Shown piece by piece: positions 7,241 through 40,810 of a stretch of DNA of 56,204 bases. The notes under the pieces were generated by a model that saw only the letters and a list, made by a program, of their open reading frames with translations, had not been told where the DNA came from and did no database searches. The position numbers and the translations under genes were made by a program. The first letter of the stretch is position 1; each line of letters opens with the position of its first letter. Source of the stretch: Pseudogemmobacter bohemicus (GTDB lineage: Bacteria > Pseudomonadota > Alphaproteobacteria > Rhodobacterales > Rhodobacteraceae); contig NZ_QNHG01000001.1 in the NCBI RefSeq assembly GCF_003290025.1, positions 1,605,583 through 1,661,786 on the forward strand. The letters run 5' to 3'.

Positions 7241-7348
7241 GAGTCATATCGCTATGCCCGCAGTTCATGACTTCTCGATCCGCCGCAGGTCAGCGACGAG
7301 TTAGACATCATTTCTGTATGATGGGAACAGCTACAGCCCGAAACGCCC

Positions 7349-8215
7349 TCAGTTTCGCAGGCCAAGCGCTTTCAGCCAAGCATCGACCTGACCGAAGGCA
7401 TCTCGCTGCCATTGATCCGCATCTCGGCCACCCAGTATCTGGCTGTCCTCCACAAAGCGACGAACGCTGGTGGGACCAAAGCCTTCAATGGCGTCAAACT
7501 TTCCGTCGATGTAGCGGTATCCTGTAACTGCGCTGATGTGCTCCACCAACGGCCTGCACGCGGCGGCTAAGGCGTCTACACCCTCGGGATAGTTACGGAT
7601 GCAGTAGTATATGTCGTAGGCGTCCTTCTGCTTAAGGCGGTTCTGCAGCGCATGCCCTTTCATCGCGAGCAAAGCAGGCACCGAACAAACCGCCAGCTCA
7701 ACGGTGTTGCGACCGCCGTTAGGCATGGTGCCATCAATCGAGACCAGTTCGTGAAAACGAATGGCCAAATCTGCTCCGTCGGCTCGCTGCACAGCAAAGT
7801 CTGCGATGATCGGCGGATTATTCTTCACGACCTCTGCGTCGCGCGGCATCAGAAAATCAACTACGACATCAATTCCAGGACCGTCGTCACGAGCCGAAAC
7901 GGTCCGGACGAGCTGAAACCTTCTGAAGCCAGCTCGCTGACTGTAACCTTGCGCCATTAGCGCTTCGACCAGCGTGGCGTATTCACCGTCCCCCAATGCT
8001 TCTGCGTCGAGGCTCAGATCGACGTCAAGCGTGCCGACATGAGGCATTTCCTCGTTTTCGAGCAAGAGCCAGGGAACCGCACCCCCGATAACCGCAAACT
8101 TTCCACGGAAACTTCCGAGCACCTGGCCTATTTCTATCAAAACGCTTTTGACTGCCTCGGTGGTGCGGTCATCATAGTCGTTGGCAGATTGCGGGTCTTG
8201 CGGCATTACTACCAA
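7349..8215 (-). CDS. Nucleotidyltransferase toxin, AbiEii-like (type IV TA)
   Basis: A 288-residue protein with the nucleotidyltransferase fold: FAVIGGAVPWLLL followed by GTLDVDLSLD, where the paired aspartates bind metal, and a later DVVVDFL aspartate strand. AbiEii/MenT-type toxins transfer nucleotides to RNA targets and halt translation. It overlaps the upstream antitoxin by seven bases (8209-8215), the standard antitoxin-first arrangement. The start at GTG/ATG 8215 gives a short polar lead; a later start at MPQDPQS (8206) is equally possible. Function as a phage-exclusion or plasmid-stability toxin is from the family. Confidence 0.78.
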   Translation of the reverse strand: MVVMPQDPQSANDYDDRTTEAVKSVLIEIGQVLGSFRGKFAVIGGAVPWLLLENEEMPHVGTLDVDLSLDAEALGDGEYATLVEALMAQGYSQRAGFRRFQLVRTVSARDDGPGIDVVVDFLMPRDAEVVKNNPPIIADFAVQRADGADLAIRFHELVSIDGTMPNGGRNTVELAVCSVPALLAMKGHALQNRLKQKDAYDIYYCIRNYPEGVDALAAACRPLVEHISAVTGYRYIDGKFDAIEGFGPTSVRRFVEDSQILGGRDADQWQRDAFGQVDAWLKALGLRN

Positions 8216-9288
8216 CTCAATTTCTCCTGCCGCAAATGTTCAGCAGCCTCTTTACCTCTTTCACCGCTAGCAGACAAATCGAGATAGGTCTGGACCGCAC
8301 CCGTACAACGGATGCCTTCCGCAGGCATAATCGTATCTCGGAACAGGCCATCGTCCTTCAAGACCGTGATCGCCACATTTTCTCCCTTGGCTGTGCGCTC
8401 GAGCCCCAGTTCCGCGACGAGACGCTCGAGCCCATCATTGTCACAATAGAAAAACTGCGTGGAATGCCGCCCGAACGGAGCGATCCACTGTGCCGCTGAA
8501 AACGACGCAAGAACGACTGTGCCGCCTTTCGCTCGCGCGCCAACTACTTTCCCGATGGCTTGTTGCAATGCGCTCCCATGGAGTGGCGTATAGAATCGCA
8601 GGCGCTTGCCCATCGGAGGCTCGTAATCTTCAGCCCAAGCATCCAACAATTGATCAGGTTCCGAAATAGCGAGGCCACCGTCCACAACACTGGCCCACTC
8701 TCTCGCCAGCAGCGCATTCCGGACATTGCTCACATGCCCGATGCTGACCCCTGCCGCCTCTGAGATATCCGTGACCCGCCATGGGCGCGCAGGATCCTGC
8801 AGCATGACACGAAGAACCTGCGACGCCTTTGGCTTGAATAACGACTTCATTTCACGTGCCTCTGCCGCCGGAGAACCAGCAGCTTCGCGCTCGATGAAGG
8901 TATTCCCAAAGATCAGTCGAGCATTGCCATGCAAGTCGACATAGCTGACGTCATCATCGACACAGAGCTTTCGGGCTTGTGGCGACAGGTAGGGCGCTAT
9001 CAGAACTGAGACCCATTGGGAGTTGTTGTGCTGACGGTACTCGTCCATTTCGTGCAGAGCTGCCCGCACATGGCGGGGCTGTCCGTTGGAAGTTATCTCG
9101 CAGACGAGCGTCCAGTCTTGACCTCCAGCTGTAATGTCGACCACCAGATCCAGCCTGTGATCCCTGTCGACATGCATCTCGAGTGTGTGGCTATGAATGT
9201 TGAGCCTGGGCACACGATCCAACAGGCTCAGCAGGGCCGCCTGAGCTTGCTCTCCAAGTCCTATCACTGGTCGACCACCTTTCAGCAT
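8209..9288 (-). CDS. AbiEi-family antitoxin / transcriptional regulator (type IV TA)
   Basis: A 359-residue protein encoded immediately upstream of the nucleotidyltransferase toxin. The N-terminal ~130 residues look like a restriction-endonuclease-type fold (LDLVVDITAGGQDWTLVCEI). A winged helix follows at about residues 155-205 (KASQVLRVMLQD, VTDISEAAGVSIGHVSNVR), then a C-terminal AbiEi-like domain (TVVLASFSAAQWIAPF). AbiEi proteins antagonise the toxin without contacting it and repress their own operon. Inverted repeats covering the start codon support autoregulation here. Confidence 0.75.
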   Translation of the reverse strand: MLKGGRPVIGLGEQAQAALLSLLDRVPRLNIHSHTLEMHVDRDHRLDLVVDITAGGQDWTLVCEITSNGQPRHVRAALHEMDEYRQHNNSQWVSVLIAPYLSPQARKLCVDDDVSYVDLHGNARLIFGNTFIEREAAGSPAAEAREMKSLFKPKASQVLRVMLQDPARPWRVTDISEAAGVSIGHVSNVRNALLAREWASVVDGGLAISEPDQLLDAWAEDYEPPMGKRLRFYTPLHGSALQQAIGKVVGARAKGGTVVLASFSAAQWIAPFGRHSTQFFYCDNDGLERLVAELGLERTAKGENVAITVLKDDGLFRDTIMPAEGIRCTGAVQTYLDLSASGERGKEAAEHLRQEKLSW

Positions 9289-9381
9289 TCGCTGAAACTA
9301 TGCCAACCAGTGAAAGTTGGCAAGATATTTCATCGAAATCCTTCATTTCAGCACACGTTGAAAACCTCAACATCGCTGAAA
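9280..9381 (-). promoter_or_regulatory. AbiEi autoregulatory operator cluster
   Basis: A perfect 7-base dyad TTTCAGC-ATTC-GCTGAAA (9280-9297) spans the antitoxin start codon. A second copy, TTTCAGC-ACAC-GTTGAAA (9346-9363), has the same 4-base spacer 66 bases upstream. A single half site GCTGAAA lies at 9375-9381. Between them are TGCCAAC/GTTGGCA (9301-9322) and the palindrome ATTTC-ATC-GAAAT. Paired inverted repeats of this kind are how studied AbiEi antitoxins bind cooperatively to shut off the operon. Confidence 0.65.
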
Positions 9382-9482
9382 TTTCCCGATGCCTTGCCAG
9401 ATCGACATGTTCGGCCAAACGCCTAGCCGCCCTGAAACTCTTGGCAATCCAATGCCGGCAGGAACGGACAGACCCTCGTAGC

Positions 9483-10142
9483 CTACTCTGCGTCTTCCCC
9501 CGTAGCCTCGCGCTCCTCTCCGAAGACCGGCATGTCAGAAATGCCACCGCCGTCCTTTTGCAGCAGGCCCGCATCCTCGAGCGCCTCCATGTCCGGCAGA
9601 TCGCGCAAGGTGTCCAACCCGAAATGCTCTAGGAAACCCGCCGTCGTCACATATGTATAGGGGGCACCCGGCTCGGGACTGCGGGGACCACGGGCAATGA
9701 ACCCGTTGCGATGCAGGCGGCCGATCACGTCCCGGCTGACCTCTCGCCCCACCATCCGGGAAATCTCGCCACGGGTCACCGGCTGCAGATAGGCGATCGC
9801 TGTCAGCACGAGACCCTCGGTCGGAGAGAGTGGCCGCGTCTCATCAAGGCTACCACGCACGGCCCGGATTGCATCTGAGAACCTGGCGCGCGTGCGGAAC
9901 TGCCAGCCGCCGGCGACCCGGGCTATCTCGTAGGGCCGGTCGTTCAACTCGCTGGAGATGTCCTCGATCAGGAGATCGATGCTGCACTCGCGCCCGACAA
10001 TCCCGGCCAATGCTTCGCGCCCGACGGGATCGGCTGAGGCGAAGAGGACGGCTTCAATCCGACCCATCCAAGTTCGCCAGCGCAGTGCTTGCGGCAAATC
10101 CGCGAGCTCCGTGTCGAGAGCAATCCCTTCCGCGCGCGCCAT
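9483..10142 (-). CDS. Plasmid-type ScpB-like segregation protein
   Basis: A 219-residue winged-helix protein of the ScpB (SMC-kleisin accessory) family: WMGRIEAVLFASADPVGREALAGIVG at the start, then PYEIARVAGGWQFRTRARF, LSPTEGLVLTAIAYLQPVTRGEISRMVG and VIGRLHRNGFIARG. Chromosomal ScpB works with SMC and ScpA; neither is near, so this is a plasmid paralogue of uncertain role. The ATG at 10142 sits two bases after the DUF1403 stop, so the two genes form an operon. DUF1403-ScpB pairs are familiar from rhizobial and rhodobacterial plasmids. Confidence 0.85.
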   Translation of the reverse strand: MARAEGIALDTELADLPQALRWRTWMGRIEAVLFASADPVGREALAGIVGRECSIDLLIEDISSELNDRPYEIARVAGGWQFRTRARFSDAIRAVRGSLDETRPLSPTEGLVLTAIAYLQPVTRGEISRMVGREVSRDVIGRLHRNGFIARGPRSPEPGAPYTYVTTAGFLEHFGLDTLRDLPDMEALEDAGLLQKDGGGISDMPVFGEEREATGEDAE

Positions 10143-10144
10143 GG

Positions 10145-11098
10145 TCAGAGCCCGAACAACCGGAAGCCGGGACGGCCGCTCAGTTCGCGCACCGCACCCT
10201 CCGACATCAACCGTTCGAACAATCGCCTGCTCGCCCAACGGGACATCTTCGCCGAACTCCAGGAGCCAGATACCGCATCATCGCCACGTAGCAGAGCCAG
10301 TACCTCGCCAGCGCCTTTGGCCCGAAGTTTCGGCTCGATCTGATCCAGGCGCTGCGCGATCACGGCCATCCCGGCAGCCAGCCGACAAGCCTCGGCCGCA
10401 CCACTCGCCGCCGCAAGAAGGATCGCACGCTCGAAACCATCACCGCCCGGCCGGGACCGCCCCCTCCCGGGACCAAAACGCATGAAAGAAGCATGAATCT
10501 GGTTCGCGAGAACCGGGACCGGCAACGACCATCGCATCCGCATCGAAAGTGCGAGATCGGCGGCCCACCATGCCAAAGCCTCCGCATCCGCCTGCCGCGC
10601 CACGATGGCAGTCGCTACCCTGGCAGCCGTGACCGGGGCTGGCGCCTGGAAGCCCAGAAGTTCCGTGAGCACCTCGGGAAGATCTCCGAGCGCTTCCGTC
10701 CATCTGACGCCGAGCAACCCGGCGGCGCTCCGCAACCGCTCTTCGTCGAAGGACGCCGAACGTCGGCACACCCGCCGCCAGGCTAGCAGTACATTTCCTG
10801 CCGGTCCGGGCTCGCTTCCGGACGGTTGCAGGCACCAGCCATCCCGTAACGCATTTTCGTCTTCCCGACGCCCCAGCAACCGAACCGTTGCAGCCGCCGC
10901 TTTGAGCGCCAGACGATGCCGCCATGCCCCACTCCAGGAGGTCTCGCTGCGCACAAGATTATCCAGTGCGGACAAGGCGCTACCTGCCATAAAGGAGGCT
11001 TCGACATCCGACGAGACCGCGGCCCTCGGTACCGCCCAGGCAGGAACTTGGTAAGCGGCGCAATGGTGTCCCGATGCCGGTTCAATCTTCTTGTTCAT
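10145..11098 (-). CDS. DUF1403 family protein
   Basis: A 317-residue, helix-rich, alanine-rich protein matching the DUF1403 family known from alphaproteobacterial plasmids. Recognisable segments are VPAWAVPRAAV near the N-terminus, AAATVRLLGRREDENALRDGW and GRPGFRLFGL at the C-terminus. No catalytic motif is visible. Its constant pairing with an ScpB-like protein suggests a shared role in plasmid DNA organisation or segregation, but this has not been shown to my knowledge. Confidence 0.8.
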   Translation of the reverse strand: MNKKIEPASGHHCAAYQVPAWAVPRAAVSSDVEASFMAGSALSALDNLVRSETSWSGAWRHRLALKAAAATVRLLGRREDENALRDGWCLQPSGSEPGPAGNVLLAWRRVCRRSASFDEERLRSAAGLLGVRWTEALGDLPEVLTELLGFQAPAPVTAARVATAIVARQADAEALAWWAADLALSMRMRWSLPVPVLANQIHASFMRFGPGRGRSRPGGDGFERAILLAAASGAAEACRLAAGMAVIAQRLDQIEPKLRAKGAGEVLALLRGDDAVSGSWSSAKMSRWASRRLFERLMSEGAVRELSGRPGFRLFGL

Positions 11099-11167
11099 AG
11101 CCCCGGAAGCTAGCGCGCATGTGCGCTTTATGCCAGTATTATTGCGAATTACCGCACCACATGTCTG

Positions 11168-11195
11168 GGTGTGTATATGTCCAATAATGTTGAAT
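11168..11195 (+). other. dif-like XerC/XerD recombination site upstream of phage capsid gene
   Basis: The 28 bases read as an 11-base arm GGTGTGTATAT, a 6-base centre GTCCAA and an 11-base arm TAATGTTGAAT. Against the E. coli dif arms GGTGCGCATAA and TTATGTTAAAT (from memory) they match at 8/11 and 9/11 positions. Integrated microviruses described elsewhere insert at dif using host XerC/XerD, so a site of this kind directly before a microviral capsid gene is meaningful. A clear second site on the far side was not found. Confidence 0.5.
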
Positions 11196-11230
11196 TATCG
11201 GATGTTTCTCCGCCTTAACAGGAGAAACAC

Positions 11231-11356
11231 ATGCAAAAACAACTACTTAGCAAAGCACTTGTGGCAATCGTGCCCATGGTGCTTGGCTTTCTCGGTGGAA
11301 CCCTTTCCGCCTTCTATCCGGCGCACTTCAACGCCCTCTGCGCGGGAGCCTTCTGA
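11231..11356 (+). CDS. 41-residue hydrophobic small protein before the phage capsid gene
   Basis: An ATG preceded by the strong ribosome-binding sequence AACAGGAGAAACAC opens a 41-codon ORF. Its product has a positively charged N-terminus and one hydrophobic segment (ALVAIVPMVLGFLGGTL). The stop overlaps the capsid ATG (TGATG), so the two are coupled. It is probably a small phage gene of membrane or lysis type, but I do not recognise a family. Confidence 0.6.
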   Translation: MQKQLLSKALVAIVPMVLGFLGGTLSAFYPAHFNALCAGAF

Positions 11357-12846
11357 TGGGTGTGCCTGCTCATTTCCAGCTTATCTCGCTGGAACCCCGC
11401 GCCTCCCGCCTCTCGGTTCTTGCGGAGGCGCAAGAGCCTGTGTCGTCCTATAAGGATGCACTCTGGCGGCTGTTCGAAATCCGCCCCTCTGAGGGCGGCA
11501 TGCTCTCTCAGAACATCACGTTTGAGCTGGACCCCATCGCGGGCCGCATGGTCACGCCGATATATGCCGAGCTCACGGTGGTTTACGTCCCCGTCGAGGC
11601 CCTGGAAGCGCTCAAAAACCCCGATGGCGACTATCCCGGCATCACTGAGGTTGTCAGGCAGAAGTTCCTTTCTGGCAATCCGCTCTTCGGCATTGAGGCT
11701 GAAAACGAGATTTCCAAACGCTGCCGCATCAATCCGCGCTCCATCGCCGGGCAAAAGCGCGTCTCTGAGATGATCAGTCTCGGGCATAACGCGGCTGTCA
11801 ACTTCCTGCGGACCCGGAAATATGTCAAAGCGACAAAGCTGCTCGCGGCCTCGACCGCGATCACTCCGGCGCTGATCAGCCGCACCTCGCTTGAATTGCT
11901 GAACGGCGTTCTTGATCCCGACGACCGGATCAACGGCGAGGTGCAACTGAGCCTTCCGACTGTGCAATTACCCGTGCGGAATCTCGTTGCCGGTCAATCT
12001 GCGTCCAGTCCCGTCCATAACGTTGTTGCTAACGGTATTCTTCCCGCTGCGGTGAGTATCCCAAACCGGCCGCTTGCGGCGCGATCTGTTGGCGCTGGTG
12101 CCATTGAGCCTATCTTTGTCCAGCTTGATGCGATCGCTGCTGGCGGCATCTCGCTTGTCGATCTCTACAATGCTGAGAAAAAAGACAGTCTCGTTCGCGT
12201 CCTGCGCGGGATTGTCGATAACAACCCTGAATATGGCGAGGAAATTGCCGTGCGCTATGCGCATGGTATGTCCGTTGATAGCGGATACTTGCCTTTCATC
12301 CTCTCGGAACAGCGCGTCCAGTTCGGTCGTAACCTCGTCGGCGCCACTGACTCGAACGGTGTTCAGGAAAACGTCCGGCGCTCCGATATGGCCGCGACCA
12401 TCAACGTGATGGTGCCGGTTCCGAAAACCGAATTGGGCGGCGTGATCATCACCTTCGCCTCGCTCAAGCCGGATGAAACCATCGCCTCGCAGCCGCATCC
12501 CTTCCTGTCTGACAATTGGGGGCCGGACAACTTCCTCGCCGATGAATTGGCGCTTGATCCTGTTCCGGTCAGCCCCGGCACCACCGGTCAGGAGATCATT
12601 GCCAACGCCTCAACTCAGAACTTCATTAGCGGCGCCGCCGAGAAGCGTGTCACTACCGCTCCCGCCAAAGAAGGCGGTCTTCCCATTGAGGCCGGAGAGC
12701 GGTTGCCCCCCGAGGGTCCGATGATCGTATTGCCAAGCGCGTTTCCAGTCCCGGCAATGTCGGACGTGCCGGTGTGGGTCAGGTTCTCGACACTATCGCC
12801 CAGCGTCCATGCGTCCGAGCTCCGCACCAGGGGGCGGTGGCTGTGA
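11356..12846 (+). pseudogene. Microviridae-type major capsid protein, C-terminally altered phage remnant
   Basis: Residues 1 to about 401 read as the major capsid protein of the small ssDNA phages that infect marine alphaproteobacteria (Ruegeria/Citromicrobium microvirus type). Marker segments are FELDPIAGRMVTPIYAEL, GHNAAVNFLRTRKYVKAT, LNGVLDPDDRINGEV, EYGEEIAVRYAHGMSVDSGY, VPVPKTELGGVIITFAS, DETIASQPHPFLSDNWG and ELALDPVPV. The remaining ~95 residues do not resemble a capsid tail. An overlapping frame (12700-12922) reads GNVGRAGVGQVLDTIAQRP, as if a deletion fused it to part of another phage gene. No phage replication gene is present. The capsid is most likely non-functional in its present form. 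Confidence 0.72.
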
Positions 12847-13053
12847 CGCTTCCTTTCGTTGTCAGTCTTTTCTTCTTGACACCATGTTGTGTACCGCGCC
12901 AGCTCTTGTGTCATTTCTTTTAAATACTGATAATATTGTATTATTTTATTTTCATGCGCCGTGCCGGACACGCCACCCGCGAAGCAGACTGTTCGTCGCG
13001 GGAAGGGCGGCGATGCAGAACGGTCCGGACCTCTTGCGGCAAAGGCTGAATAC

Positions 13054-13101: not shown

Positions 13102-15231
13102 TCAGGCCTGTGCCGCCACAGGGCTCTCAGCATAGCGGTTGCGCAGCGCAAGCAGGCGAAGCGCGTTGAACACCACGATCAGCGTCGAGCCTTCGTGAAC
13201 CGCCACGGCCGCGCCGATGCTCATACCCATGATCGTTGCGGGCACGAGCACCGCCACAATGCCCAAAGACAGGATCGTGTTCTGCAAGATGATCGAGCGG
13301 GTCTTGCGGCTGAGATCGACCGCAAAGGGCAGATGCGCCAGATTGTCGGCCATCAGGGCCACATCCGCCGTCTCCAGTGCCACATCCGAGCCCGCCGCCC
13401 CCATGGCGATGCCCACGGTCGCGCTGGCCATGGCGGGGGCGTCATTCACGCCATCGCCGACCATCGCCACCTTTTCATTGGCGCGCAATTTCTTGATCGC
13501 CTCGACCTTGTCTTCGGGCATCAGATCGCCCCAGGCCTCGGTCAGGCCGACATCTTTGGCGATGGCATCGGCCACCTTCTGGTTGTCGCCCGAAATCATG
13601 ATCATCCGGGTGATGCCGATGTCCTTCAGCTTCAGCAGCGCCTGTTTCGCGGCCTCGCGCGGGGTATCCATCAGGCCGATCACGCCCATGTCACGCCCGC
13701 CCTGGCGCACGACCATCGTGGTGCGCCCGGCCTCACGCAATTGCGCGACGGCGGTCGTCATCTCCTGGCCAAGTGCCGGAATGCCATCGGTGCCGAACAT
13801 CTCGGCTTTGCCAATCCAGACCGTCTCGCCGCCGATCGTGGCATAGACGCCGCGCCCGGTCAGGCTCTTCAAATCGCCCGCCGCCGGAATCCCGGCGCCG
13901 TTCAGCCGTGCGGTGCCATCGGTGACGATGGCCTGGGCCAGCGGGTGATCGCTCAGCGCTTCAACCGCGACGGTGACGCGCAGCAGCTCATCTTCGCTGA
14001 CGCCCGAGGCGGTCACAACATCGGTGATGCGCGGCTTGCCCTCGGTCAGGGTGCCGGTTTTGTCAAAAGCGATGGCCGTCAGCGAGCCGAGGTTTTCCAA
14101 AGGCGCACCGCCCTTGACCAGAACACCGCCACGCGCTGCGCGGGCCACACCCGACAGCACCGCGCTCGGGGTGGCAATGGCGAGGGCGCAGGGGCTTGCG
14201 GCCACCAGAACCGCCATCGAGCGGTAGAAGCTGTCGCGGAACGGCTCGTCGATGACCACAAAGGCGAACAACAGCACGAAGGCCAGGATCAGCACCGCCG
14301 GCACGAAAATCCGCTCGAATTTTTCGGTAAAGCGCTGCGTGGGCGACTTCTGCGTTTCCGCCTCGCTGACCATCTTGACGACTTTGGCCAGGGCCGATTC
14401 CGTCGAACGGCGTGTAACCTCGATCTCGATGGCGCCAGAGCCGTTGATCGTGCCGGCAAAAACGCGCGACTCAGCAAGGACGGAATTCGGGCGCGCCCGC
14501 GCGAGCGCAGGGTCAGCCACCGGGGCCTTGTCGACGGGAATGCTTTCGCCCGTCACCGGTGCCTGGTTGATGGCGCTGTTGCCAAGGATGACGAAACCGT
14601 CGGCGGACAGCCTTTCGTTCGGCCGCACGATCACGGTATCGCCGATCTCCAGCTCTTCGACCGGGATTTCGCTGGTCACGCCATCACGGCGCACCCTTGC
14701 TGTTGGTGGCGCAAGCTCGGCCAGGGCCTCGATGGCCTTTTTGGCACGGCCCATCGCATAATGCTCAAGCGCATGGCCAAGGCTGAAGAGAAACAGCAGC
14801 AGCGCGCCTTCGGCGAATGCGCCAAGCGCCGCCGCACCAGCCGCCGCCACCAGCATCAGCGTGTCGATCTCGAACTTCTTCTGGCGCAGATTGTCGATGG
14901 CTTCGCGCAGGGTGAAGAAGCCACCGAAGAAATAGGCCAGCAGGAACAGTGCGGTCGGCAGCCAGCCGGGGGCCGCTCCGACAAAATTATCGATCAACAC
15001 GCCGATGATGAGCGCCGCGCCGCTTGCAAGGGCAAAGATCATCTCGGTGTTCGGGCCAAGGAAATTGGCATGTGAATGGTCATGGCCGTCGCCCGGCCCA
15101 TGCTTTTCACCCGAAGGCCCGTGATTATGGCCGGCGTGATCCCCCCTGGAATGATCATGGCCCGCGTGGTTGTGTTTGGAATGGTCGGCGCCAGGGCGGT
15201 GGCCCGGTGATGCTGGATCTTTGGATGTCAT
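13102..15231 (-). CDS. P1B-4 type heavy-metal translocating ATPase (Co/Zn/Fe-type efflux)
   Basis: A 709-residue P-type ATPase. The first ~55 residues are a His-rich metal-binding tail with repeated HNHAGHDHSRGDHAGHNH-type motifs in place of a CXXC domain. Core motifs are TGES (actuator), SPCALAIATP (the SPC metal site of the P1B-4 class), DKTGTLTEG (phosphorylated Asp), HPLAQAI, GDGVNDAPA and HEGST in the last membrane helices. SPC plus HEGST points to the Co2+/Zn2+/Fe2+ group rather than Cu or Cd pumps. The ATG at 15231 is chosen because the His tail follows it directly. It is probably the last gene of a short minus-strand operon. Confidence 0.92.
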   Translation of the reverse strand: MTSKDPASPGHRPGADHSKHNHAGHDHSRGDHAGHNHGPSGEKHGPGDGHDHSHANFLGPNTEMIFALASGAALIIGVLIDNFVGAAPGWLPTALFLLAYFFGGFFTLREAIDNLRQKKFEIDTLMLVAAAGAAALGAFAEGALLLFLFSLGHALEHYAMGRAKKAIEALAELAPPTARVRRDGVTSEIPVEELEIGDTVIVRPNERLSADGFVILGNSAINQAPVTGESIPVDKAPVADPALARARPNSVLAESRVFAGTINGSGAIEIEVTRRSTESALAKVVKMVSEAETQKSPTQRFTEKFERIFVPAVLILAFVLLFAFVVIDEPFRDSFYRSMAVLVAASPCALAIATPSAVLSGVARAARGGVLVKGGAPLENLGSLTAIAFDKTGTLTEGKPRITDVVTASGVSEDELLRVTVAVEALSDHPLAQAIVTDGTARLNGAGIPAAGDLKSLTGRGVYATIGGETVWIGKAEMFGTDGIPALGQEMTTAVAQLREAGRTTMVVRQGGRDMGVIGLMDTPREAAKQALLKLKDIGITRMIMISGDNQKVADAIAKDVGLTEAWGDLMPEDKVEAIKKLRANEKVAMVGDGVNDAPAMASATVGIAMGAAGSDVALETADVALMADNLAHLPFAVDLSRKTRSIILQNTILSLGIVAVLVPATIMGMSIGAAVAVHEGSTLIVVFNALRLLALRNRYAESPVAAQA

Positions 15232-15242
15232 TCGTGTTCGCC

Positions 15243-15491
15243 TTATATGTGCAGCGCCTCGGCAAACCACAGCGCGCAGGGTGCGTTGTGGTCAAATTCA
15301 TTCGTCAGCAAGCCTGTCGCATTCGCCCTGACGCAGATCACGCCGGACATCGCCTGCACATCTTTGGCAATGGTGCGGACGCGCCGCTCCTGCTTGAGGC
15401 AGCCCCTGCGCCCGCACCGTGCTGGCGCTGCCCGCGCCACGGCGGCGATCTGCGAAAACAGGACGGTTATATCCAGGCGCAATTCTGTCAT
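15243..15491 (-). CDS. Small protein of unknown function upstream of the metal ATPase
   Basis: An 82-residue ORF starting at MTELRLDITVLFSQIAAVAR, with GGA eight bases before the ATG, ends 12 bases before the ATPase start. Three cysteines (RCGRRGC, VICVR) and a C-terminal HNAPCALWFAEALHI could bind metal. I do not recognise a family. The spacing suggests co-transcription with the ATPase. Confidence 0.45.
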   Translation of the reverse strand: MTELRLDITVLFSQIAAVARAAPARCGRRGCLKQERRVRTIAKDVQAMSGVICVRANATGLLTNEFDHNAPCALWFAEALHI

Positions 15492-19531: not shown

Positions 19532-19748
19532 GTGGCTGCCAGCCGAATAACATCATAGATCAAACGGGCTAAACGGGTTTTCCAGCGCAGGGCGTCAAGC
19601 ATACTATGCAACATCGCCTCCATGGTGTTTTTGCCCCGAACTTCCCCAAGATCTAGAAACTGCTTGATCGAATCTGTTTGTCGGGGCAATAGTCTCGAAA
19701 AATAACGCGCGATGCATAAAAAATCGTGACCACGATTGGGCAGTGATA

Positions 19749-20942
19749 ATGAGCGAGACGGAAAAAGACCTCGACGTCGCCATCGGCCACTACGCGGAAC
19801 TTCTCGCGTCAAACCTTCATGCGCAACGCGCAGCACATTTCCCGCCAGACGCGAAGAAGACCATGCGCCACCTGAGCAGTGGCGAGGCCGCCGAGCTTCT
19901 CGGGGTCGATCATACCTACCTGCGCAAGCTGCATCGCGACGGCAAAATCCCGGATGTTGAACTGACGGCCGGCAGCCATAGGCGCTACTCGCTCGAGGAT
20001 ATCTGGGAAGTCCGCAAGAGTCTCGATGCCGGAGCCAGAAAACCTGGAACATACCTGCCCGGCCGCCGCGACGGCGACGAGCTTCAGGTGATCTCCGTGG
20101 TGAATTTCAAAGGCGGATCCGGCAAAACCACCACTTCGGCCCATCTCGCGCAGCGCCTCGCGCTTAAAGGCTACCGGGTGCTTGCGATCGACCTCGATCC
20201 CCAGGCCTCATTCTCGGCCCTGCACGGCATTCAGCCAGAAATCGACCTGATTGACGGCGGCACGCTTTACGATGCGGTGCGCTATGATGACCCGGTTCCG
20301 ATCACCGATGTGATCCGTAAGACCTATATCAAGGGCCTCGATCTGATCCCCGGCAATCTCGAACTGATGGAGTTCGAGCATGAAACCCCCGCTGCGATCC
20401 AGCGTGGCGGCGCAAGGGCCTTCTTTGCCCGCGTTCGCGATGCCCTCGACGCGGTTGAGGCCGACTATGATGTCGTGGTCATCGACTGCCCGCCGCAGCT
20501 CGGCTTTCTGACCATGTCCGCCCTCTCGGCTTCCTCCGGGGTGCTGGTAACCGTTCACCCGCAGATGCTTGATCTGATGTCGATGTCGCAGTTTCTGCGG
20601 ATGACGGCGGATCTGCTTGGCGTGATCCGGGATGCCGGCGCGAACCTGCGGTTCGATTGGCTGCGCTTCCTGCCGACGCGCTACAAGGTTGGCGATGCGC
20701 CCCAGACCGAGGTGATCGCTTTCATCCGCGGGCTTTTCGGCAGATCAGTGCTGACCAATCATATGGTTGAATCGACAGCAATTTCAGACGCAGGCCTGAC
20801 GAAGCAAACTCTCTATGAGGCCGACCGCAAGGAATTCACCCGGCAAACATTCGACCGGGCCATCGAGTCGATGAATGCCGTGAACGATGAAATCGCCGTC
20901 ATCGTGCAGGAAACCTGGGGGCGTCATGTCAAGAAAGCCTAA
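19749..20942 (+). CDS. repA: RepA plasmid partition ATPase (repABC)
   Basis: A 397-residue ParA-type ATPase. The N-terminal ~110 residues carry a helix-turn-helix (LSSGEAAELLGVDHTYLRKLHRDGKIP). The deviant Walker A is VNFKGGSGKTTTSAHLA near residues 120-136, and the Walker A' and B motifs are AIDLDPQASFS and DYDVVVIDCPPQLG. RepA partitions the plasmid and represses the repABC operon. ATG 19749 is preferred; GTG 19743 in the same frame would add two residues. The stop overlaps repB by 17 bases. Confidence 0.95.
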   Translation: MSETEKDLDVAIGHYAELLASNLHAQRAAHFPPDAKKTMRHLSSGEAAELLGVDHTYLRKLHRDGKIPDVELTAGSHRRYSLEDIWEVRKSLDAGARKPGTYLPGRRDGDELQVISVVNFKGGSGKTTTSAHLAQRLALKGYRVLAIDLDPQASFSALHGIQPEIDLIDGGTLYDAVRYDDPVPITDVIRKTYIKGLDLIPGNLELMEFEHETPAAIQRGGARAFFARVRDALDAVEADYDVVVIDCPPQLGFLTMSALSASSGVLVTVHPQMLDLMSMSQFLRMTADLLGVIRDAGANLRFDWLRFLPTRYKVGDAPQTEVIAFIRGLFGRSVLTNHMVESTAISDAGLTKQTLYEADRKEFTRQTFDRAIESMNAVNDEIAVIVQETWGRHVKKA

Positions 20943-21858
20943 GCTCGGCCTGCCGCTGCAGACACTGCGCAATGCGCCCGATGCCCTGGAAGGGCGCCGC
21001 CTGCGTGGCGGTGTGCAAGACATCGAGACTGACCTCATTGATACCGCCGGGCGACTGCCAGACCGGCTGGCGCTGGAGGCAAGCGGTCTGGCCGAGTCAA
21101 TCCGAGCCAGTGGGCAACGCGTTCCGATCCTGGTCCGGCCGATCAGTGACGGGCGCTACGGGCTGATCTACGGTCGACGCCGGCTCGAGGCCTGCCGCAT
21201 CCTCGGCATCAGGGTTCGGGCCATCGTGACCGAGACGGATGACCGCCATGCCCTGCAAGACCAGCTGATCGAGAACCAGGATCGCCGTGACCTGAGTTTC
21301 ATCGAGCGGGCACTTGTCGCCACCGCCCTGCTCGACGGCGACCATTTTTCCGACGGCGAGCGGACCAACCGGGCGGTGGCCGAAATTCTCGGGCTGACCG
21401 AGGCCGGCGTCTCGCAGCTGTTAAGCGTCGCGCGAACTGTCGGCGAGGGTCTGATCCTCGCAATCGGGCCTGCTCCGGGCATTGGTCGCCCGAGATGGGA
21501 AGAGCTGAAGAAGTCCCTTGCGGACTCTCAGGCTGACCCTGCGGCTTTGATCGAGGTGGCAGAGCGGGCGAGATCGCTGGATGCAACCGCGCCGGACGAC
21601 CGCTCTGATGCCGCGTTTTCTGCCACGCTCGCTGCGGCGAAGAGATTGAACGCGGCGCCTTTTGGCATGAATCCGTACGTTCCAGACGGCTTGTTGACCA
21701 TCGCGGGCGTCGGCACAGCGCGGATCACAACCGGCCAACGTGGCCGGCGGCTCCGGCTCGACTTCGACGCAGAGGACAAGACATTCGTCGCCTGGCTGGA
21801 GGCCCGCGCCCCCGAGCTGATCGCAGAACTTCACGAGCGTTGGCGCTCGGAAGACTGA
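20926..21858 (+). CDS. repB: RepB ParB-like centromere-binding protein (repABC)
   Basis: A 310-residue ParB/RepB protein. It has the ParB nucleotide-binding domain (LAESIRASGQRVPILVRP ... GLIYGRRRLEACRILG, residues ~60-100), the ENQDRRDLSFIERA segment and a helix-turn-helix (RAVAEILGLTEAGVSQLLSVAR). RepB binds the parS sites and works with RepA. ATG 20926 overlaps the repA end, as is usual in repABC operons. Confidence 0.95.
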   Translation: MSRKPKLGLPLQTLRNAPDALEGRRLRGGVQDIETDLIDTAGRLPDRLALEASGLAESIRASGQRVPILVRPISDGRYGLIYGRRRLEACRILGIRVRAIVTETDDRHALQDQLIENQDRRDLSFIERALVATALLDGDHFSDGERTNRAVAEILGLTEAGVSQLLSVARTVGEGLILAIGPAPGIGRPRWEELKKSLADSQADPAALIEVAERARSLDATAPDDRSDAAFSATLAAAKRLNAAPFGMNPYVPDGLLTIAGVGTARITTGQRGRRLRLDFDAEDKTFVAWLEARAPELIAELHERWRSED

Positions 21859-21930
21859 CCCCGCAAACGGGATCGGAAGACTGAGGCAGAGCAACTTAAC
21901 AAGAAAAGGAGGCACGAGACAGGCATATAG

Positions 21931-22020
21931 AAAAAAGGCCCCGCGAAGCCGGCAAGCTTCTCGAGACCTTTTCCACGTTTCGCATTGGGGGCCAGCCCCG
22001 CTACAAAACCAGTTTTCACA
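21931..22020 (-). ncRNA. Antisense ctRNA (incA-type) between repB and repC
   Basis: On the minus strand a promoter TTGCGG (22050-22055), a 17-base spacer and TACAGT (22027-22032) is followed about 60-85 bases later by a hairpin CGAGAAGC...GCTTCGCG (21942-21963). A run of six T (forward A 21931-21936) ends it. That gives a transcript of about 90 nt opposite the repC leader, the position of the incompatibility RNA in every repABC plasmid. The exact 5' end is estimated. Confidence 0.65.
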
Positions 22021-22048
22021 CCTCTGACTGTAGCGATCAGGCCCCTCA

Positions 22049-22087
22049 CCCGCAAGCGCAAAGCGATTCGCGGGACGGGGATTTTTT
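22049..22087 (+). promoter_or_regulatory. S-element attenuator hairpin in the repC leader
   Basis: CCCGC...GCGGG (22049-22053 with 22070-22074) with an inner CGC-AAA-GCG stem, followed by ACGGGG and ATTTTTT, looks like an intrinsic terminator just 20 bases before the repC start. In repABC plasmids, ctRNA pairing to the leader lets this element form and blocks repC expression. Confidence 0.6.
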
Positions 22088-22106
22088 GCCTTCGTGATCG
22101 TCGCAC

Positions 22107-23279
22107 ATGTCCTATATTCCTCTTTCGCCGTTTATGCGGCAGATTTCGCATAGCCATCTGAAACTGATTTCGGACCAGGGCACCCCCCTGCCCGATCCGG
22201 TTAACAAATGGAAAGTGCTGCGTGATCTGTCCAAAGGCCAGGCAGCTTTTGGGGTCAACGAACGGGATCTGACCGTTCTGCAGGCCCTGCTGAGCTTTCA
22301 CCCCGAGGATGACATCAGTGGCGCTCCGACAATCGTCTTCCCTTCGAACAAAACCATCTGTGACCGGCTGCATGGCATGCCCTGCTCGACGATGCGGCGA
22401 CACCTTAGGCGGCTGGTTGATGCCGGACTGATCAGGCGCAAGGACAGCCCCACCGGAAAGCGTTACATGCGCAAAGGCCGTGAGGGTGAGACCGCTTTCG
22501 GCTTTGATCTCTCGCCATTAAACCGGCAGGCAGACATCATTGCCCGCGCCGCTGATGAAGCGCGGGAAGCCGAATGCCAGCTCAGGCAGAAGCGTGAAAC
22601 CATCAGCCTCATGCGCCGTGACATGATCGCGCTTGAAACCCTTGGCCGAAGCGAAGCCCCCGACCATGGCCTTTGGGACAAGCTCGGCGATGCTCTCGCG
22701 CTTACAGGCAGAAGCTTGCGCCGCAAGCTTCTCGCAAACGCATTGGATGATATTATCACAAACTTCACAGCGATAATTGCCGAAGCGCAAGCGGTGCTGT
22801 GCCCTGCTCAAACGCCCATTCCGGGCACCGACGACGCTCAAAATGAGCAGCGCCTTCTTAATTCAAATAAAGACTCTCAAGAATCTGAATCGGACATATT
22901 GATAAGCCCACCGGACCAACCACAAACAAACAAACAAGATGCTGAGAAGCGGTTCTCCCTGCCGTTGAGCCTTGTCACAAGCGTTTGCCGAAGCTTCCAG
23001 GACTTTTATCCTGAGAGAGTGCAAAGCTGGAATGAACTGTTCAATGCAGCCTCAGACTTGCGACCCGCAATGGGCGTTAGCATGCCAGCGTGGCAGGAAG
23101 CCATAGCGCGAATGGGGAAAGACATCGCCGCGGTTACTCTGATGGCAATGTTGGAGCGGTTCTCAAAGATCCGAAACCCTAGTGGATACCTTCGCGCTTT
23201 GAGTGTCAAAGCCACCAAGAACACCTTCACCCCTGCCCCGATGATCATGGCTCTATGCCGTGAACGGAAGGGTGCTTAA
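22107..23279 (+). CDS. repC: RepC replication initiator (repABC)
   Basis: A 390-residue RepC. The N-terminal half contains the winged-helix region (LTVLQALLSFHPED, SNKTICDRLHGMPCSTMRRHLRRLVDAGLIRRKDSPTGKRY), which binds the origin. The C-terminal half carries PAWQEAIARMGKDIAAVTLMAML and NPSGYLRALSVKA. The only replication initiator in the window, it should determine the copy number of this replicon. The stop codon lies inside a parS palindrome. Confidence 0.95.
   Translation: MSYIPLSPFMRQISHSHLKLISDQGTPLPDPVNKWKVLRDLSKGQAAFGVNERDLTVLQALLSFHPEDDISGAPTIVFPSNKTICDRLHGMPCSTMRRHLRRLVDAGLIRRKDSPTGKRYMRKGREGETAFGFDLSPLNRQADIIARAADEAREAECQLRQKRETISLMRRDMIALETLGRSEAPDHGLWDKLGDALALTGRSLRRKLLANALDDIITNFTAIIAEAQAVLCPAQTPIPGTDDAQNEQRLLNSNKDSQESESDILISPPDQPQTNKQDAEKRFSLPLSLVTSVCRSFQDFYPERVQSWNELFNAASDLRPAMGVSMPAWQEAIARMGKDIAAVTLMAMLERFSKIRNPSGYLRALSVKATKNTFTPAPMIMALCRERKGA
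22840..22935 (+). other. Probable oriV: AT-rich stretch inside repC
   Basis: This segment of repC (TTCTTAATTCAAATAAAGAC and onward) is markedly richer in A+T than the surrounding gene and encodes a low-complexity linker. In studied repABC plasmids the origin lies in such an AT-rich region within repC. The placement is inferred from composition. Confidence 0.45.
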
Positions 23280-38747: not shown

Positions 38748-39657
38748 CTTCCCACTCCTGCAGCAACGCCGGGATGCGCTCGCTGAGATAGGATAGGAAT
38801 GGCTGGTCCTGCACGTTGACGGCGGACAGTGTAATTTTTTTCGCGGAAGTGGTCGCCAGTATCCGACCTGGCACCAGATTCGAGCTCTCTCGCCCGTTAT
38901 TGGCTTTTGCCACAGTCGCTGCAATTGCCAGCTCCAAGCGTTCCGGGCTTGAGGACGCCTGCGCCGAACCGACTGCGTCCTCCACACGTCGAAGATCTCC
39001 AAGTTTGGCAGAACGACAGAAGGATGCCAGGGCCTCCCATTGGCGGCGGCCAGCTCCGTGTGCCGGTCCGATAGCCCGGATAAGGCTTTCAGGAATGGCT
39101 GAGACAATGGCCTTCATCTTGTAGATAAGGGTGTCGTTTACGCCTGTGGCGCGATGGACAACAACGCCTTTAAAACCTGCATCAAGAATTCGGGTGATGA
39201 AGAGGGCTTTCTCGATAAATGAGGTGTCAAGGCGCTGGTTGTTCTCAACGCCCTGCGCGATTAATGCCTCCTCCTCAGTCATCTCCATGACCGAAGCACG
39301 CACATCTAAGCCGAGTGCCTTGCAGGCCAGCACGCGGCGACGCCCATAGACGACCTCTAGGTCGCCGTTATCGAGCCGACGCAACAGGATGGGCACTTGC
39401 TGACCGTGCTGCCGGATGGACTCGATCAGATCACTGATATCCTCCGAGGCGTCAATCCGATCGCTGAAGCGCGATGCATGGATGAGCGTGGGACTGACCA
39501 GCCGCGTTGCGCGCCGATCTTCCTCTTTCAGCGATGCTTCCGCCCGCGCCATGTTTGGGCTGCTACGGCGGGGCAGGGGGCTATCGTCTTCCGGTTCGTC
39601 GAATTTTCCTTCGAGCGCGTTCTTCAGCGAGTTACCGAAAATTCCTTTGCGGGCCAT
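38748..39657 (-). pseudogene. Second RepB (ParB-like), C-terminus cut by IS6
   Basis: About 303 residues of a RepB protein different from the one at 20926: MARKGIFGNSLKNALEGKFD, then LIESIRQHGQQVPILLRR, VVYGRRRVLACKALGLDVRA, ENNQRLDTSFIEKALFITRI and a helix-turn-helix near VVHRATGVNDTLIYKMKAIV. The frame reaches LLQEWEGFCR and runs into the IS at 38747, losing only the last ~15-30 residues. The frame stays open through the IS in antisense to 37984, so a 557-residue fusion could be made. No repC follows. Confidence 0.88.
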
Positions 39658-40810
39658 CAGCTGCGCCCCCAGGATTTCATGAACTCGGCTTCAAGCTCGT
39701 CTGTAATCCGACCAATGGCTTCAATCACCCGGTCATATGTCTTTTTGTTGACGTCCCGGGGCTCGATCTCAAACACAGGTTGCTTGGTGTTTGCCGCATC
39801 GCCGATCGCCGTCGATTTGACGAACTCCGTGCTCATTACGGCAGTGCCGAGTACGGTCCTCAGGAATCCGGCCATCTGGACCTGTGGTTGGTCCGTCGCC
39901 TCATAGCGCGTGATAAGGAACTTGATGAAGTCGAAGCTGTGGTCTGGCGCATGCTGCTCGACAACGCCCATGAGCTCGCTTGCCAATCCAAGGAAGCTCG
40001 CCAGAGACATGGCATCGAGCATGGACGCGTTCAGCGGAATCAGAACGCCTGTTGATGCGAACAAGGCTGCAATGACAGCGAAGCTCATCTGCGGTGGAGT
40101 GTCGAAGATGACGACGTCGTAATCCTGCTGAACCTGATCAATGGCATCTGCCAGTCGGCCATGGAACGGCTTGGAGCTGTCCGGAGTCCGGAACGACAGC
40201 GCAGTTTCGTATTCGAATTCGATCACGTCCATCGAGCCGGGCAGGAGGTCGATGTTCGGAAAGTAAGTCTTACGGATCGCATCCCGGCAGGGGAGGGGGT
40301 CAGTGTAGCGGATGACGTCGTAGGCAGATAGCATGTCGGGCGCGAGTTCGGGTGTGATCCCGAACATGTTCGTCATCGACGACTGCGCATCGAGATCTAT
40401 GGCCAAAACCCGATACCCCCGCAGTGCAAGGATCTCGGCAAGGTGGGTGGCCGTCGATGTCTTCGACACGCCGCCTTTCAGATTGAAACAGGTGACGACC
40501 TGACATTTTTCGCCCGCGCGGCGGCGCGGGTAGTGTTCTGGGCGGATCTTGCCTTCTTCGAAAAGAACCCGTTGGATTTCGTGGAATTCGCTGGCGCTGA
40601 AGTAGCGACGGTTGCTCTTGTCTAGTTCGCCAACCGGAATGCGGTCTGCCATTGTCGTGATGTAGTGGCGGAATGTATTCTGGTTTACCCGAATGAACTC
40701 TGCCGACTCGCGCATCGAGAAGCGCCGGAGCGTCTTCTGAGCGTCAGGCGGAAATGCTTCGCGCGAATGGTCTTGCAGCGCCCTGGAGAGGCGCCCAGAA
40801 TATGCTTTGA
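39657..40810 (-). pseudogene. Second RepA (ParA-type ATPase), 5' end missing
   Basis: A RepA with Walker A FNLKGGVSKTSTATHLAE (note GGVSKT rather than GGSGKT), AIDLDAQSSMTNMFG and DYDVVIFDTPPQMSFAV. The first in-frame ATG is at 40715, but family-like sequence continues upstream to about 40810 (GRLSRALQDHSREAFPPDAQ, KTLRRFSMRESAEFIRVNQN). There it collides with the truncated thiamin ABC gene, so the start and promoter are lost. It overlaps the repB copy by one base. If expressed from 40715 it would lack part of its DNA-binding domain. Confidence 0.85.

Follow-up and report, generated by a model that had tools for sequence, protein, structure and literature searches.

The window analysed here is a stretch of 56,204 nucleotides from Pseudogemmobacter bohemicus, and the phage-derived locus within it is an internally deleted prophage remnant of about 1.75 kb, not a lone capsid gene. 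The remnant is probably a defective prophage, derived from an Ebor-like microvirus of about 6 kb that inserted into a recombination site of a plasmid. On the left it ends within a family of plasmid recombination sites, as do the prophage of Paracoccus sp. IB05, its closest intact kin, and seven more copies in the genus. Comparison of sites and their neighbouring genes leans toward the plasmid recombinase, rather than XerCD, as the enzyme that would have carried out the integration. The fossil itself is ordinary, and the novelty would be its choice of a plasmid-type attachment site.

Results and discussion

The window encodes the core of a microvirus capsid protein

A 496-aa open reading frame (ORF) occupies positions 11356-12846 of the plus strand in the ORF list. 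A first-pass annotation, made from the sequence without database searches, had proposed that its product is related to microvirus major capsid proteins, and the searches bear this out. In tblastn the ORF matched VP1 of Rhodobacter phage Ebor (E 7e-125, 53% identical, 79% of the query covered) and Ascunsovirus oldenburgi (53% identical, E 9e-112), and in a phmmer search of the PDB residues 41-433 aligned with the solved Ebor capsid (9ffg, 9ffh; E 2.6e-130), the alignment being poor past residue ~406, where it overlaps a stretch of RTX-type sequence. Matches at E<=0.01 were found in 8 of 50,697 phage records and in 4 of 72,556 plasmid records, the latter being two from Rhodovulum (53%, one of them at E 7e-127), one from Tritonibacter (42%) and one from Aminobacter (23%). 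Capsid homology covers residues ~41-406 (DNA 11480-12571). The annotation's placement of the capsid in the first ~401 residues was thus right as to homology and in need of correction as to extent, since residues 1-41 belong to gp2 and residues ~407-496 lie opposite an antisense RTX fragment. Relative to the 511-aa Ebor VP1, the capsid is without its first ~31 and last ~120 residues.

Profile searches did not detect this homology. Pfam-A and PHROGs returned zero matches to the 496-aa ORF at E<=10, so the profile comparison suggested in the annotation came back empty though the sequence homology is strong; PHROGs likewise gave no match at E<=0.1 for the capsid of an intact relative, the IB05 prophage. 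The profile test therefore misses the Ebor-like clade. NCBIfam gave no match for the three window proteins searched, and a structure predicted with the ORF and five relatives had a mean pLDDT of 35.7, too poor to be read for a jelly roll.

Substitutions in the capsid core point to recent breakage of a gene on which selection had acted mainly as on a phage gene. Compared with IB05, dN was 0.165 and dS 1.43. When P. humi served as the outgroup, the 125 changes on the window branch fell on codon positions 1, 2 and 3 as 35, 16 and 74, and 46 of the 60 changed codons with a clear ancestor were synonymous; on the IB05 branch the corresponding figures were 14, 19 and 66, with 44 of 51 changed codons synonymous. 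Non-synonymous changes numbered 14 on the window branch vs 7 on the IB05 branch. This surplus of first-position and non-synonymous changes would be in keeping with some decay.

Both phage ends are kept and most of the interior is missing

The features of the locus and its flanks are as follows.

9483..11098, minus strand: ScpB and DUF1403 plasmid backbone genes, left flank (Pfam PF04079, PF07183)
11151..11165, plus strand: accessory block ACCGCACCACATGTC, left of the site (alignment of sites)
11180..11201, plus strand: attL core TCCAATAATGTTGAATTATCGG; left arm common to pOT1-8, spacer different, phage DNA rightward
11231..11353, plus strand: gp1 homologue, 41-aa peptide (80% identical to its counterpart in the Paracoccus sp. 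IB05 prophage)
11356..11479, plus strand: beginning of gp2, joined in frame with the capsid (DNA identity to relatives' gp2)
11480..12571, plus strand: core of VP1, the major capsid protein (identity 53% with Ebor and 75% with the IB05 prophage; PDB 9ffg)
12572..12830, minus strand: piece of an RTX calcium-binding repeat gene (matches RTX-type genes at the DNA level; borders approximate)
12831..12924, plus strand: non-coding right-end region of the phage (alignment to IB05 and P. humi right ends)
12925..12947, plus strand: attR half-site TACTGATAATATTGTATTATTTT (by-eye alignment with IB05 attR TCTTGATAATGTTGCATTATCGG)
13102..15270, minus strand: P-type (E1-E2) ATPase, right flank (Pfam PF00122, PF00702)
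19743..23279, plus strand: repABC (Pfam AAA_31, ParB_N/RepB, RP-C)

The annotation had noted the capsid; to this we add the gp1 homologue, the fusion with gp2, the RTX insert in antisense, the two ends of the phage and an attachment site of plasmid type. The gp1 homologue matched Ebor gp1 weakly (38% over 28 residues, E 0.025); its sole match in PHROGs, also weak, was a holin (E 0.07), and Pfam-A had none. DNA identity to gp2 of four relatives (L014, L010, L016, L017) stops at 11477-11478 and VP1 identity starts at 11480-11482 in the nearest kin, and for this reason ORF residues 1-41 are assigned to the start of gp2. The in-frame fusion is, as read from these alignments, a deletion that took out the remainder of gp2, VP2 and the beginning of VP1. 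No match across the fusion was found in the other genomes of the 120 searched.

Beyond the capsid core, the RTX fragment occupies the place of the VP1 end, gp5-gp7, VP4 and gp10. It is antisense to the ORF, with ORF residues ~407-496 opposite, and its repeats (GSGSDTLLGG / GVGNDLLTGGAGAD) are interrupted by frameshifts; its Pfam match, HemolysinCabind at E 0.007, is below the family cut-off. The right-end region that follows aligns over 48 bp at 87.5% with the IB05 prophage and over 50 bp at 84% with P. humi. In the attR half-site the phage left arm is retained and the host right arm is degenerate or replaced; that this right arm is not site-like counts against our main reading.

Judged by coordinates, about three quarters of the ~6-kb phage are missing. 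The genes that persist (gp1, the gp2 start and VP1) stand in their order, and the deleted remainder is present in kin such as the P. faecipullorum prophage L020. As the annotation had observed, the element lacks a phage replication gene: VP4 is absent, the only VP4 match of the genome being a distant one elsewhere on contig C1, and because of this absence we call the element a remnant and not a phage. It occurs once in its genome, a draft assembly of 16 contigs.

The annotation's reading of a microvirus fossil integrated as double-stranded DNA agrees with the presence of the remnant on a contig with repABC. Its placement inside a repABC replicon holds in part: the repABC genes are on the same contig, but contig C1 is 1.66 Mb long and the window is its right end. 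A search of the genome for 16S rRNA gave no match, and ribosomal protein S11 is encoded on contig C3. A second repA-repB pair lies at 38755-40802 (minus strand), with no adjoining repC match to two RepC queries. Elsewhere, contig C5 of G000 has three equal-scoring repC genes ~95 and ~121 kb apart, either tandem plasmid copies or an assembly artefact.

The remnant begins in a plasmid-type recombination site

Positions 7300-11201 are 99.9% identical to plasmid pOT1-8 of Haematobacter massiliensis, barring an insertion in pOT1-8. The alignment stops at the 22-bp core (11201), with the spacer already different. In pOT1-8 the order is ScpB and DUF1403, the site, a 352-aa tyrosine recombinase and then repABC across the start of the circular record; in the window the P-type ATPase, annotated as heavy metal translocating in its plasmid matches, stands at the position of the pOT1-8 recombinase.

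The site has near-palindromic arms around a 7-bp spacer and is of plasmid type. Scanning 13 genomes of the genus with the pattern TCCRATAANNTTGNATTATCGG, up to one mismatch allowed, gave 32 copies in 12 of the 13, and a reversed-pattern control gave 0. The accessory block, in the genus mostly about TATCCGCCGCGCCTGTCA, was found at 27 of the 32 sites with a regular expression composed after the alignment, and DUF1403 lies 93-268 bp left of the site at 18 of 32. In G007, an assembly of 7 contigs, each of four smaller contigs has one site, and the 3.4-Mb contig C1 has one as well (1 mismatch).

Prophages of P. humi, Rubellimicrobium and Tritonibacter are at dif-type sites with a 6-bp spacer. The remnant is not flanked by a dif with a 6-bp spacer; the near-palindromic site with the 7-bp spacer stands there instead. 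The sites of Rhodovulum plasmid prophages are intermediate, because they have a 6-bp spacer yet a TTATCGGA arm. The ATAA/TTAT inner arms of the plasmid-type site are common to dif, and on that account XerCD might act there.

Phage left ends (leader and gp1 start) are present at 9 of the 32 sites in five genomes (the window, G001 with four, G004 with two, G007 and G008), as counted on the right side of the sites with a regular expression composed after the site alignment. Three more gp1/gp2 pieces in G001 are without the site, two of them with a lost left boundary and one cut by a contig end. One of these siteless pieces runs into a recombinase gene that is without about its first 80 codons and has an in-frame stop, and repABC follows.

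Transposons also end near the site. At 6 of the 32 sites a TniABQ transposon end lies 46-63 bp to the right of the core. A transposon end adjoins the plasmid site at L049, L050, L052, L053, L090, L102 and L103, and at phage-bearing sites it falls inside gp1; TniA, TniB and TniQ are encoded by L090 (4908-10964). Tn5053-like transposons prefer plasmid res sites.

A tyrosine recombinase often accompanies the site

The 352-aa recombinase of pOT1-8 matches PF00589 (E 4.9e-15), and its catalytic residues were read by eye from sequence motifs. A recombinase lies 43-820 bp right of the site at 12 of the 32 sites and beyond an IS (1,251 bp) or a TniABQ-bearing insert (6,045 bp) at two further ones, 14 of 32 in total. 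For eight sites the contig ends less than or at most 700 bp away; among the other 24, which have more than 5 kb of DNA on the right, 10 are without a recombinase rightward, and three of these ten carry phage.

Counted from the recombinase side, the genus has 28 matches, 23 of them at E<=1e-120, and the pairing was assessed for these 23, the other five being fragments or distant genes. The site is beside 14 of the 23. For five recombinase genes whose upstream DNA extends 1.5 kb or more, no site turned up at under 6 mismatches, a level also reached by 13 of 300 shuffles; of the remaining siteless recombinases, three lie where a contig begins or ends, and the fourth is the phage-recombinase remnant. 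The pairing of site and recombinase is therefore common, not universal. G002 alone in the genus lacks the site, and it alone lacks a match to the recombinase at E<=1e-30. The genome of the window has three recombinase matches, none of them on contig C1.

The association extends beyond the genus. Homologues of the recombinase at E<=1e-20 occur in 843 of 72,556 plasmid records, well beyond this order, and the site was present with 0-4 mismatches on five of seven recombinase plasmids chosen from other genera and orders. These five are Agrobacterium pAt1, P. aminophilus pAMI8, a P. yeei plasmid, a K. vulgare plasmid and S. meliloti pAK76, with DUF1403/ScpB or the recombinase adjoining; the Ancylobacter and Shinella plasmids showed no site at up to 5 mismatches. 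Among NCBIfam models, XerC/XerD come nearest to the recombinase, with scores far short of the cut-offs, and sequence alone thus does not decide between this enzyme and XerCD. A search of solved structures gave weak matches only (XerD, E 0.1). RinQ was considered as the plasmid recombinase and rejected: PMC10194956 assigns it to the invertase/resolvase family, which makes it a different protein.

Similarity between picked plasmid pairs changes at the site

From a larger comparison of plasmid pairs, we picked five with far closer similarity on one side than on the other. In all five the switch of similarity is at the site, and the best halves are 93.8-99.9% identical. The window and pOT1-8 are 99.9% identical on the left and have no match on the right, and pOT1-8 and G008:C21 are 98.5% identical on the right, with just a 57-bp match on the left. 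G008:C21 and G006:C3 are 98.8% identical on the left and 86.7% on the right. IB05 and G012:C7 are 98.3% identical on the right and have no match on the left (a separate alignment of the right flank of the IB05 prophage, beginning inside the site, gave 97.4% over 3,517 bp), and the IB05 DNA left of the phage likewise has no left match to G012:C7. G012:C3 and G007:C6 are 93.8% identical on the right, with no match on the left. Some pairs are alike on both sides, for example L093 and L099 (left 90%, right 86%). None of the compared pairs supplied an empty site with both flanks in one relative.

These natural switches of plasmid halves may be signs of recombination at the site; homologous recombination could also produce them. 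The loci of these picked pairs, where halves of repABC plasmids seem swapped at the 22-bp site, are L023, L091, L098, L018/L060 and L105/L108.

Origin of the remnant and alternative explanations

We suggest that the phage would have entered by site-specific recombination between its attP and the plasmid site, whose normal task would be to let the tyrosine recombinase that is frequently encoded next to it resolve plasmid dimers. Deletions may afterwards have taken the stretch from gp2 through VP2 to the start of VP1 and then the stretch from the end of VP1 through gp5-7 and VP4 to gp10, and the RTX fragment may have come in. The host right arm and the recombinase would also have been lost, and the remnant would be stranded as a result. 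Among the papers listed in the literature covered (judged by titles and the beginnings of abstracts, with most subscription journals outside the scope), we found nothing on microviruses at a plasmid-encoded recombinase site.

Chromosomal XerCD could instead have joined the same prophage to the same plasmid site, which would then be a pdif-like variant of dif. Sites of the XerCD/dif kind are reported for Ebor and other microviruses (PMC11980548, PMC3091885), the inner ATAA...TTAT of dif is kept in the site, some sites have no recombinase nearby, and the recombinase itself is nearest to the XerC/XerD models, if below cut-off. We nevertheless regard integration by XerCD as rather unlikely: the near-palindromic arms and 7-bp spacer differ from the 6 bp of the P. 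humi, Rubellimicrobium and Tritonibacter dif-type sites, a recombinase stands rightward at 14 of 32 sites, and the site recurs with 0-4 mismatches on five of seven recombinase plasmids from other genera and orders.

The other alternatives concern the nature of the element itself. Retention of both phage ends, together with other deletion derivatives in the genus (VP2 start to VP4 in G007, and C16 of G001), might suggest a mobile miniature or satellite of the microvirus moved by a helper phage, but the element is single-copy in its genome, the right arm of its attR is degenerate, and the other derivatives carry different deletions, with no right end found in G007; a satellite is improbable. We consider it still more improbable that the capsid gene was domesticated and selected for a host function. 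Such a gene might keep its ORF open across the fusion, as this one does, and would show strong past purifying selection (dN 0.165, dS 1.43; 74 of 125 changes at third positions), but the same selection is expected of a recently living phage gene, the truncated capsid ends in antisense RTX sequence, and no other genome of the 120 has a match spanning the fusion. An assembly chimera could be suspected from the mosaic of phage, RTX and plasmid DNA in a draft of 16 contigs; recurrence of the left junction at eight other sites in four other genomes, and alignment of the right end with an intact prophage, make this hardly credible.

We are evenly divided on a broader proposal, namely that a temperate microvirus clade moved from chromosomal dif/XerCD to the plasmid-encoded, Cre/lox-like dimer-resolution system of repABC plasmids. 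The site would then be a hot spot for ssDNA phage integration, TniABQ landing and the reshuffling of plasmid halves, and the phage, borrowing the recombinase of plasmids, would be maintained and spread together with them. Use of the chromosomal dimer-resolution system is known among integrase-less ssDNA phages. If this clade uses that of a plasmid, lysogeny would depend on which plasmids a cell carries, the inheritance of phage and plasmid would be tied, and the plasmid recombinase, with its 843 of 72,556 records at E<=1e-20, would be a testable platform for phage attachment. A concrete site and recombinase are now available for testing.

Relatives and comparison systems

In a VP1 tree of 11 sequences, the window and IB05 group together (100/99) with P. 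humi as sister (100/99); the former two are at plasmid-type sites and P. humi is at dif. One switch of attachment system would be consistent with this tree, though the sequences are few. The IB05 prophage (L018/L062, taken as G001:C64) is on a contig of 190,393 bp whose ends overlap by 55 bp, as those of a circle would, and has all Ebor-type genes bar the methylase, with VP2 split between the contig ends. It resembles the remnant in VP1 (75%), gp1 (80%), site family and clade (100/99) and differs in that gp1-gp2-VP2-VP1-gp5-gp6-gp7-VP4-gp10 are all present and both att sites are legible.

Ebor (PP754850; 'Tainavirinae', Microviridae) resembles the remnant in VP1 (53% identical), in gp1 and gp2 upstream of VP2-VP1 and in being found integrated, and has no integrase annotated. 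Unlike the remnant it is complete (6,611 bases), and its attP is described in the record as a XerCD dif motif, in which we read a 6-bp spacer. According to PMC11980548, Ebor is a microvirus integrated in Rhodobacter capsulatus strains, its prophage being placed in the cbbII operon. Microvirus prophages are also described in Rhodobacteraceae (PMC8224337, PMC9239249), and putative ones in relatives of Rhizobium (PMC9512667). The extension of lysogenic range claimed in the first-pass annotation does not survive, because alphaproteobacterial microvirus lysogeny is already published (PMC8224337, PMC9239249, PMC11980548, PMC9512667).

The microvirus-related proviruses of Bacteroidetes are comparable in being integrase-less and in seeming to use a host dimer-resolution site, but PMC3091885 proposes chromosomal dif and XerCD for them, not a plasmid site. 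In Sinorhizobium, a Cre-like recombinase is near repABC on pSmeLPU88b, according to PMC10194956; here a tyrosine recombinase stands beside repABC.

The plasmid site and its recombinase have their nearest working analogue in Cre/lox. Like Cre/lox-type plasmid dimer resolution, the putative system here has a near-palindromic site.

Several further loci were noted among the relatives. Far left of the window on contig C1, L061 holds another microvirus prophage, only distantly related, close to a dif-like site whose spacer is 6 bp; a stretch of the locus reads N, and an apparent capsid-replication fusion there was discarded as an artefact of that stretch. Pseudogemmobacter humi has a back-to-back pair of microvirus prophages, each from a different lineage, with a single dif-type site between them (L019, 339-11202). 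The G001 contig C16 keeps pieces of gp1, gp2 and VP2, and in G007:C5 a deletion remnant at the plasmid site has the VP2 start joined to VP4 without its start (L059, 6582-8451). In a plasmid of Rhodovulum sp. MB263 (L003, 9083-9135), the prophage capsid gene is broken by a frameshift near the point at which the window capsid ends, which is likely a coincidence.
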